Part shown: positions 1 to 1,659 of the stretch, in pieces
Layout: every line of letters starts with the position of its first letter
Numbering within the stretch: the stretch's first letter is position 1
DNA from: Candidatus Bathyarchaeota archaeon
GTDB taxonomy: Archaea > Thermoproteota > Bathyarchaeia > Bathyarchaeales > Bathycorpusculaceae
Reading direction: 5' to 3'
DNA length: 64,000 nt
Assembly (NCBI GenBank): GCA_026014745.1
Contig: JAOZHS010000001.1
Coordinates: forward strand, 682,001-746,000
Made by a program: the position numbers and the translations under genes
The notes under the pieces: model-generated
Databases searched by the model: none
Seen by the model: the letters and a program-made list of their open reading frames with translations, nothing else
Told to the model about the DNA's origin: nothing

Positions 1-183
1 AAAACAAGACTCGGATTAATGAGGTTTTGGAGGCACCTTTTGTTTGAGTCAGATTTTATCAAGCCCCCTGAAGAGTGGTTCAATAAGTTTCAATTTGGTA
101 ACTTCGAAAGTGTCTCTGTTAACTGGGCTCCTGATGTTATCGATAGAAATCAAATGAGTTTATGGGACTATAAAGGAGAATAA
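1..183 (+). CDS. C-terminal fragment of the short-Argonaute partner gene (probably APAZ-domain protein)
   Basis: Frame 1 is open from the first base to a TAA at 181-183, giving the last 60 residues of a protein whose start lies outside the window. The tail is rich in aromatic residues (a FWRHLLFESDF stretch, an EEWFNKFQFGNFE stretch) and ends in DYKGE. The next gene begins 6 nt later and encodes a short Argonaute. Short Argonautes are nearly always encoded directly after a protein with an effector domain (SIR2, TIR or nuclease) fused to an APAZ domain. From that context I infer this is the APAZ end of such a partner. The effector type cannot be seen, and the tail alone does not prove APAZ. 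Confidence 0.55.
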   Translation, partial: KTRLGLMRFWRHLLFESDFIKPPEEWFNKFQFGNFESVSVNWAPDVIDRNQMSLWDYKGE

Positions 184-189
184 TGAACA

Positions 190-1659
190 ATGAACGTGGC
201 CCTTTTAAGTGAACCAAAACTATTTTTCAGCGAAAAAGAGACTTGTACAGATCCCCAAGTAGGGTTATTAAATTATGGCCCTTATGGGGGTGCCAAAACT
301 AAGAAACCTGAGAAAGAAAAGGTGACAATCCATGCTGGAATTATTGGCACCCTTAGAAGCATAAATGCTGCCAAAAGTTTTCTTGAAAGGTTAAATGGCC
401 GTATCTCTGCACAAGAGAGTACGTCTAAGCAATACAAAGGAATAGACTTTCCTGGGCTAGGATTGAATGGACCTCTGCGATTTGAGATTGTTATTGACGA
501 AAACGATGTCTTAGACATCAATCGAGAATTTATCCGATATCTCTCTCGCTTAGATAGAAGAGAACGCATTAAGGAAGCGGTCGCAAAATATTGTGAGAAA
601 TTCGACGTTTTGGCTGAAGCTCATCCCAAGCCAGATATCATCTTGCTCCCTCTTGATGATGAATTACTTGCTCTTTGTAAGGACCCTGACGTTAAAGTTG
701 ACCGCATTGTATATCAAAAAAGGGATTTTGGTGATCCAGAAAGTGCTAACGCCCCCATGTTCGATTTTCATCATCATTTAAAAGCTCAGGCAGCACTTCC
801 TAGACGCGATTTTGTCACTCAAATGTTAAATCCCAAAACAATGGTATTCTCTGATGAGAGACAAAGTGCGGCCTTAATCGCTTGGAACTTCTCAGTCGGC
901 ACTTACTATAAGGCAACAGGCACTCCTTGGAAATTAGCAGATATAAATGATGACACTTGCTACATTGGGATCTCTTTTTATCGAGAAATAATCAAGGACA
1001 AAATGGCGATGAGAGCAAGTATCGCACAGGTTTATATGAGGACTGGTGAGAGTCAAGTAATTACTGGGAGACCTTTTGAATGGGATGAAAAAGTCAGAGG
1101 TCGCCATGTTTGGTTGACTTCGTATCAGATGGAAGAGTTAGTTGCGGGGTCCATAAGAATCTTTTTTGATCAACGTCAGAAAAATCCAAAGAGGTTAGTC
1201 GTGCATAAATCGACTCATTTCTCAGAAGATGAAATCAAAGGCTGCATAGATGGCAGTAAAAATATCGATCAGATCGATTTAGTGCATGTAAGTGAAGATA
1301 TCGGCTTTAGAGCGTATCATCACAAATACGATTTTCCTGTCGTACGTGGTACTTTGATTACTAATAGCAAGCAACCAAACGACGCAATGTTATTTACTTC
1401 TGGTTACGTTCCCACTATTGGAACCTATCCCGGTCCTTCTGCACCAAAACCGCTTCATCTTAAGTGCCAAAGGATTGATTCATCCATCGAAATGATAAGT
1501 TCAGATATTCTGGGGCTCAGCAAGCTTGATTGGAACTCTTGCACATTCTATACAAGATTGCCTGTCACAATAGGGGTCTCAGAAAAAGTTGGGGACATTT
1601 TGGCTGAGATGGCAATCGCGAATATTTCGCCTCCAACAAGCTATCGATATTATATGTGA
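190..1659 (+). CDS. Short prokaryotic Argonaute (MID-PIWI), catalytically inactive
   Basis: The 489-residue protein has the length of short pAgos, with no N or PAZ domain. The MID part includes a K198 to T210-Q211 region resembling the 5'-phosphate pocket of guide-binding Argonautes, followed by YKATGTPWKL (240-249), a block typical of pAgo PIWI entry. The PIWI strand that normally carries the first catalytic Asp reads CYIGISFY (257-264), with Ser262 in its place. The second Asp site reads VVHKSTHF, with Ser341. The C-terminal LPVTIGVSEK region lacks the final acidic or His ligand. The protein should therefore bind guide and target without cutting and signal to the partner encoded just upstream. 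An AAGGAG ribosome site lies about 10 nt before the ATG. Function in anti-plasmid or anti-phage immunity is inferred from the family. Confidence 0.88.
   Translation: MNVALLSEPKLFFSEKETCTDPQVGLLNYGPYGGAKTKKPEKEKVTIHAGIIGTLRSINAAKSFLERLNGRISAQESTSKQYKGIDFPGLGLNGPLRFEIVIDENDVLDINREFIRYLSRLDRRERIKEAVAKYCEKFDVLAEAHPKPDIILLPLDDELLALCKDPDVKVDRIVYQKRDFGDPESANAPMFDFHHHLKAQAALPRRDFVTQMLNPKTMVFSDERQSAALIAWNFSVGTYYKATGTPWKLADINDDTCYIGISFYREIIKDKMAMRASIAQVYMRTGESQVITGRPFEWDEKVRGRHVWLTSYQMEELVAGSIRIFFDQRQKNPKRLVVHKSTHFSEDEIKGCIDGSKNIDQIDLVHVSEDIGFRAYHHKYDFPVVRGTLITNSKQPNDAMLFTSGYVPTIGTYPGPSAPKPLHLKCQRIDSSIEMISSDILGLSKLDWNSCTFYTRLPVTIGVSEKVGDILAEMAIANISPPTSYRYYM

Follow-up and report, generated by a model that had tools for sequence, protein, structure and literature searches.

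In the DREN (DUF4365)-APAZ systems known as SPARDA (NbaSPARDA, TmuRE-Ago and XauSPARDA), a short Argonaute (pAgo) and a PD-(D/E)XK nuclease fused to an APAZ domain are encoded in one operon. The accessible part of PMC10810196 describes, for TmuRE-Ago, nonspecific (collateral) DNA cutting after RNA-guided target recognition. NbaSPARDA, according to the available text of PMC12205087, forms filaments, and its nuclease domains tetramerise and turn active, i.e. it is an oligomerisation-switched collateral nuclease; the same text gives D41, Q60 and K62 as the DREN active site. The nuclease-type short Argonautes that were found with experiments (KjAgo, TmuRE-Ago and NbaSPARDA) are all bacterial. The archaeal family to which the locus described here belongs is already catalogued by sequence, as PADLOC Aga_REase_Archaea, and no function was found attached to it. 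Our literature search, which covered few subscription papers, found no experimental work on archaeal restriction-endonuclease-APAZ pAgo systems. An effector called 'REase' is named among the APAZ nuclease effectors in the accessible part of PMC10810196, and 'MRR' is named among the SPARDA nucleases in that of PMC12205087; these may or may not be the same family. Argonautes are named among the few defences that are not low in Thermoproteota in the available portion of PMC12988326.

The window, i.e. the whole stretch of 64,000 nucleotides that was analysed, comes from a Candidatus Bathyarchaeota genome of 2.7 Mb in 3 contigs and starts inside a two-gene archaeal cassette, a nuclease-APAZ partner followed by a short pAgo, both on the + strand. 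A first-pass annotation had noticed a 489-residue MID-PIWI pAgo located 6 nt after the end of another gene, and this is indeed what is found: the pAgo reading frame (ATG start) occupies positions 190..1659 and the preceding gene ends at 183, 6 nt separating its stop codon from the pAgo frame. An AAAGGAG sequence at 172..178 (+ strand), 11 nt 5' of the pAgo ATG, reads as a probable Shine-Dalgarno-like element. Extension of the contig upstream, as had been proposed, turned the truncated gene into a complete protein of 473 aa with a TTG start (L002:13762-15183, in the upstream locus), of which 1239 nt lie before the window and only the last 60 codons plus the stop, the C-terminal end of the APAZ part, lie within it (1..183, + strand). 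The placement of the TTG start agrees with most homologues, which start at that alignment column or within a few residues of it. The adjacent, same-strand gene pair is also found in relatives.

The 489-aa protein matches the PADLOC class I pAgo model (pAgo_I) across residues 1-489 (E 7.9e-117). Its match to the solved structure of the short pAgo 9om4_B spans residues 4-489 (E 3.6e-52). Both are far beyond chance, which rules out a chance reading frame; Pfam gave no match for the protein. Further solved short pAgos matched as well (9qbp_B, E 1.6e-50; 9jsb_A, E 2e-41; 8ifk_B, E 1.7e-41), and these best solved relatives include SPARDA and SPARTA subunits. The protein is a MID-PIWI pAgo without N and PAZ domains and is thus a class I short pAgo. 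Its MID domain carries the canonical 5'-guide pocket, of the HK type, with codons spread over 769..912 (+ strand): H194 (769-771), K198 (781-783), Q211 (820-822) and K241 (910-912). Among 12 aligned clade members, 2 of them incomplete at the C-terminus, K198, Q211 and K241 do not vary, and position 194 holds H in 9 members and R in the remaining 3; HK and RK are pocket types given for short pAgos by Ryazansky et al. in the accessible part of PMC6299218. The serines previously noticed in place of two catalytic PIWI aspartates are both present, Ser262 encoded at 973..975 and Ser341 at 1210..1212 (both + strand). Serine stands at 262 in 12/12 aligned clade members, and both columns are non-acidic (without Asp or Glu) in 12/12 aligned short pAgos of the phylum, window included. 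The DEDX tetrad is therefore absent from the PIWI domain, as judged on S262 and S341, two of its four positions. With an intact MID pocket and a PIWI domain lacking the acid at 262 and 341, this pAgo should bind guides and not cut, i.e. act as a guide-binding, cutting-dead sensor.

As the first-pass annotation had pointed out, the class of such a system is set by the effector domain of the partner, which lay outside the window; an APAZ domain and an effector were expected in the upstream gene. Both were found, and the class is that of a restriction-endonuclease-like nuclease fused to APAZ. Pfam gave no match for the partner. The PADLOC Aga_REase_Archaea model (PDLC02417) matches residues 28-431 through its positions 1-367 (E 3.3e-21), thus spanning nuclease and APAZ, and the five other PADLOC models match nothing before residue 192, so that their matches correspond to the APAZ part. 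Aga_REase_Archaea also matches a Schlafen/AlbA-type partner in genome G003, only via its APAZ part; for this reason, it is the coverage of the nuclease part, and not a match to this model alone, that identifies a nuclease. A profile of six family members matches the APAZ of the DREN-APAZ protein 9jsb_D (E 1.5e-8) and also 9qbp_A, 9qbl_A and 9qbq_A, and by these matches the C-terminal part of the partner is an APAZ domain. The first ~155 residues are the nuclease domain, with D47...E64-x-K66 as in PD-(D/E)XK enzymes; E11, D47, E64, K66, F97 and W110 are invariant in 15/15 aligned nuclease domains. No Pfam family reaches its cut-off for the window's copy of this domain, and across the 15 members none except Mrr_cat recurs in two (best E 0.034). 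DUF4365/DREN gave no Pfam match to the domain, an hhalign comparison against 14 bacterial DREN domains gave a probability of 0.1, and a search against the sequences of solved structures returned one useless match (E 1.7). TIR and SIR2 effectors were rejected: searches of the N-terminus with Pfam and PADLOC gave no TIR or SIR2 match, and the PADLOC SIR2 models match the partner within its APAZ part only, from residue 200. Having an APAZ and a PD-(D/E)XK domain, the system belongs to the nuclease-APAZ class rather than to the SIR2 or TIR ones.

To look at the fold, the nuclease domain of a Methanomassiliicoccales relative (L058), whose partner protein is 27% identical to the window's over 459 residues, was modelled with AlphaFold from an alignment of 3 sequences (L058, L059 and L138); the model is thus that of a relative and not of the window's own protein. 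It reached a pLDDT of 76.7 and a pTM of 0.78, with a helix at 17-30, strands at 33-35, 48-52 and 62-72, a helix at 76-92 and a strand at 99-108. D47 is located immediately before strand 48-52, and E65 and K67 within strand 62-72. With rows within one Z unit being read as tied, and a Z near 8 being possible background, the highest fold matches were LmuA (9hr5: Z 9.0, rmsd 5.1, 157 aligned; 9nxx: Z 8.9, rmsd 4.9, 155 aligned), HerA-DUF (9c1m: Z 8.5, rmsd 5.3, 155 aligned), Cap4 (6vm5, 6wam, 6wan and 6vm6: all Z 7.9, rmsd 3.6-4.2, 139-144 aligned) and Hachiman (8zue: Z 7.8, rmsd 3.9, 144 aligned), with 4-12% identity across the Cap4, LmuA and HerA-DUF matches. Next came Lamassu LmuACB, Avs3, AF1548 and FokI (Z 7.6-7.0), and the first eleven rows of the Z list are all from defence systems, a consistent signal. 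Other entries of Cap4 (7yib, Z 6.6; 7yia, 6.1) and of LmuA (9ny1, Z 5.8; 9ny5, 5.4; 9hqx, 5.3) scored lower. The 50 listed fold matches contain no DREN, SMEK or HNH structure, an absence that excludes nothing. Foldseek matches of the domain were weak (EndoMS, E 0.024; Cap4, E 0.026, prob 0.91) and none was below 0.001. The full-length model of the relative's partner was good in the nuclease part only, and its mean pLDDT of 46 precludes any structural statement on its APAZ; its fold matches are led by the same families (LmuA, HerA-DUF and Cap4), and its top Foldseek row is the SPARDA filament 9qcc_A, at a weak score (E 0.014, prob 0.25, TM 0.13). The model tentatively suggests that the partner nuclease is probably a PD-(D/E)XK enzyme of the Cap4/LmuA kind. 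The systems to which Cap4 (CBASS), LmuA (Lamassu) and HerA-DUF belong are nevertheless entirely different in their sensor part, which here consists of APAZ and pAgo.

For the pAgo trees, 121 pAgos were collected after removing 3 repeat records, 12 were excluded (long or distant forms, fragments and the broken L033) and the rows were trimmed to the last 560 residues. The REase label was assigned with an HMM whose 6 training sequences belong to the 19 REase proteins and so match by construction; other labels were given by sequence patterns, and Pfam, run on 5 of these, agreed for L038 and L041 (Schlafen/AlbA) and for L040 (TIR) and was silent for 2. In a quick tree of 109 pAgos, the 19 with an REase-type partner form one clade (SH-aLRT 100). 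The careful tree, of 44 rows, likewise unites 12 REase-partner pAgos (100/99, and 100% of the bootstrap trees counted) and places the DREN and SMEK pAgos (14 rows) in a separate clade (100/100). Further copies, such as L149, L163, L165-L167, L172 and L173, lie outside the trees. The tree analysis flagged long branches for the window and L148 and an odd letter composition for L059. Of the 19 REase-partner pAgos, L138 comes from a tailed-virus contig and all the others are from archaeal cells or plasmids. PADLOC, the solved-structure matches and the trees, in which it had been suggested that the PIWI be placed, all put the window protein within the short pAgos, as first proposed, and the trees put it in the REase-partner clade. 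Compared with the remainder of Aga_REase_Archaea, which it resembles by the span of the partner match, the class I pAgo and the archaeal hosts, the window copy belongs with four relatives (L058, L168, L169 and L175) to a deep branch of its own (100/99), on a long branch of 0.95.

The comparison with DREN-type SPARDA is thus a mixed one. The APAZ domains are homologous, as are the pAgos (9qbp_B, 9jsb_A), and the window partner, a nuclease fused to APAZ, has the domain make-up of SPARDA in the wide sense of the term. In contrast, the window nuclease is not recognisably DREN by sequence, its site reads D-E-K instead of the D-Q-K of NbaSPARDA, and its pAgo is in another clade. The SPARTA (TIR-APAZ) and Schlafen/AlbA-APAZ systems of the phylum share the operon of APAZ protein and short pAgo, and the window differs from them in effector domain and pAgo clade.

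A pAgo match was found in 22/398 sampled genomes of the phylum, window genome included, with partners that include TIR, Schlafen/AlbA-type and other domains. The earlier remark that very few short pAgos are described from this archaeal group is therefore too strong for pAgos as such, and it stands for the nuclease type, the intact nuclease partner being present in the window genome only. The partner itself was matched in 4/398 genomes: the window genome, two with the APAZ part only, and G376, where it is split between two frames and an internal stop interrupts the pAgo. In Halobacteriota (the Methanoperedens phylum) 17/392 genomes match the partner, 15 including the nuclease positions and 2 the APAZ only. 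One of the 15, G601, is cut by a contig end and has a stop inside. The pAgo adjoins the partner in 12 of these 15 genomes and is nearby in the other 3, where one gene is interrupted by inserted genes, the partner in G745 and G667 and the pAgo in G582. The corresponding loci are L211 (pAgo) and L212 and L213 (partner), and some of the inserted genes are presumably transposase genes. Thermoplasmatota contribute 1/243 genomes, L058's own. The window's nearest relatives are three copies of the Methanoperedens phylum (L168, L169 and L175) together with L058, at 44-46% identity for the pAgo and 27-35% for the partner. Scanning genome contigs with single proteins found no relative; a scan with an alignment of 12 pAgos gave 570 confirmed stretches, and among the best 80 of these, the ones with a readable partner include two with an REase-type nuclease, L058 and L059 (Pacearchaeota). 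Eleven plasmid records match, all haloarchaeal by name. In the virus collection, 1/8 loci has an REase-type nuclease partner (L138); virus scans with single partners gave no additional loci, a virus scan with an alignment of haloarchaeal pAgos yielded 4, including the L138 contig again, and 50,697 phage records contained no partner homologue at E 0.01. The L138 contig (L138/L207, IMGVR_UViG_3300037843_001625) encodes terminase large subunit, major head and neck families and, close to its end, the nuclease-APAZ and pAgo operon. The accessible part of PMC11705971 reports a tailed provirus of Bathyarchaeia that has a pPIWI gene.

In 7/31 other genomes of the genus, the genes flanking the operon (ORFs of 142 aa and 259-283 aa) adjoin each other with conserved order and strand and 53-389 nt between them; among the other 24, the second gene has no match in 15, the first has none in 2, and in 7 they lie on different contigs. 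The distance is 3559 nt in the window genome, where the operon lies between them. Third-position GC is 0.36 for the pAgo, the lowest value among 40 long window ORFs (mean 0.53, sd 0.07), and 0.38 for the partner. From the adjacency of the flanking genes elsewhere and the low GC3, the operon looks like an arrival from elsewhere; its loss from the seven genomes is the less likely alternative, because the relatives are far. A G/T-rich low-complexity stretch follows directly after the pAgo stop (1660-1850), on the 3' side of the cassette, and might mark the insertion junction.

We consider it likely that the operon is a two-gene short-pAgo nuclease-APAZ immune cassette with a SPARDA-like collateral mechanism. 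The pAgo and its partner would pair as a heterodimer through the APAZ, and a small guide (RNA in studied relatives) would direct the complex to invader DNA, the guide type and the DNA target in this proposal being carried over from other clades. Upon target binding, complexes would assemble and bring nuclease domains together, which would then cut DNA at large and stop the cell before the invader spreads. LmuA was likewise solved as a nuclease tetramer on DNA, as the title of entry 9hr5 states. Against the SPARDA-like reading, the pAgo is outside the DREN and SMEK clade and on a long branch; moreover, the nuclease domain shows no sequence relation to DREN and has E at the place of NbaSPARDA Q60, so that its activation and substrate may not be the same. 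Cutting restricted to the recognised invader, i.e. removal of plasmid or virus DNA without collateral damage or arrest, is an alternative suggested by the canonical D-E-K nuclease, with FokI and EndoMS among its fold neighbours, and by carriage on plasmids and a virus contig, which fits competition of element against element. We regard it as unlikely, given that the highest fold matches are from defence systems, that genes are inserted in 3/15 Halobacteriota copies, as might befall a costly system, and that the studied nuclease-APAZ systems cut nonspecifically according to the available parts of PMC10810196 and PMC12205087.

The cassette could also be a relic, i.e. a mobile unit that inserted and is no longer functional. 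Both frames are open and the catalytic and pocket positions are kept despite only 24-46% identity among relatives, which makes decay improbable in our opinion, even if the occurrence is sporadic (an intact partner in 1/398 phylum genomes, a broken one in G376) and the base composition is odd (GC3 of 0.36 and 0.38 versus a mean of 0.53). NAD depletion of the SPARTA or SPARSA type comes to mind since other short pAgos of the phylum have TIR partners (Pfam TIR being confirmed for L040). As far as the sequence goes, however, this reading is refuted, by an N-terminus without TIR or SIR2 match and by a motif and a relative's modelled fold that are those of a nuclease, and we give it hardly any weight.

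As far as we found, four points have apparently not been stated before: that these archaeal pAgos form one clade, that the nuclease retains all of D-E-K, that its modelled fold resembles Cap4/LmuA, and that a tailed virus carries the cassette. It is possible, although short of probable, that the clade is a separate, archaea-only Argonaute branch that recruited its own Cap4/LmuA-type nuclease in parallel to the bacterial DREN and SMEK ones, and that was spread across archaeal phyla by plasmids and tailed viruses using it against competitors. As the clade is archaeal, independent and equipped with a different nuclease, it makes it possible to test if guide-triggered assembly and collateral cutting are general to APAZ systems or specific to DREN and SMEK. 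Nucleic-acid detection could also benefit from a collateral nuclease of archaeal, in some cases halophilic, origin.

Other observations concern the neighbourhoods and partners of archaeal pAgos. A conserved divergent gene pair lies just upstream of the partner, on the opposite strand, in the haloarchaeal loci L148-L153, L155-L158, L161-L167, L172 and L173; it was looked for and not found beside the window operon. The first gene, seen in 19 loci with some records counted twice, encodes an unassigned protein of 280-290 aa, and the second a protein of ~250-270 aa in complete cases, with a weak PIN-domain match that fell slightly short of the Pfam threshold in the single protein tested (E 1.1e-4, 23.2 versus 23.6 bits). 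This might be a toxin-antitoxin or accessory pair. The L034, L042 and L062 pAgos form a small archaeal clade (SH-aLRT 100); their partners have a possible nuclease domain in which the E-x-K place reads VEIIW or VEVIW, without lysine, and the effector had no Pfam match above cut-off in the two tested. Schlafen/AlbA_2-APAZ-like partners occur in 13 archaeal loci (L038, L039, L041, L044, L063, L065, L073, L078, L080, L082, L084, L131 and L132), Pfam SLFN_AlbA_2 being confirmed in the two tested and the remaining 11 being assigned by sequence pattern. Finally, long pAgos of 771-777 aa in two genomes of the phylum (L045 and L047) adjoin a gene of 448-473 aa, the start of which resembles what we take to be terpene-cyclase-like repeats.
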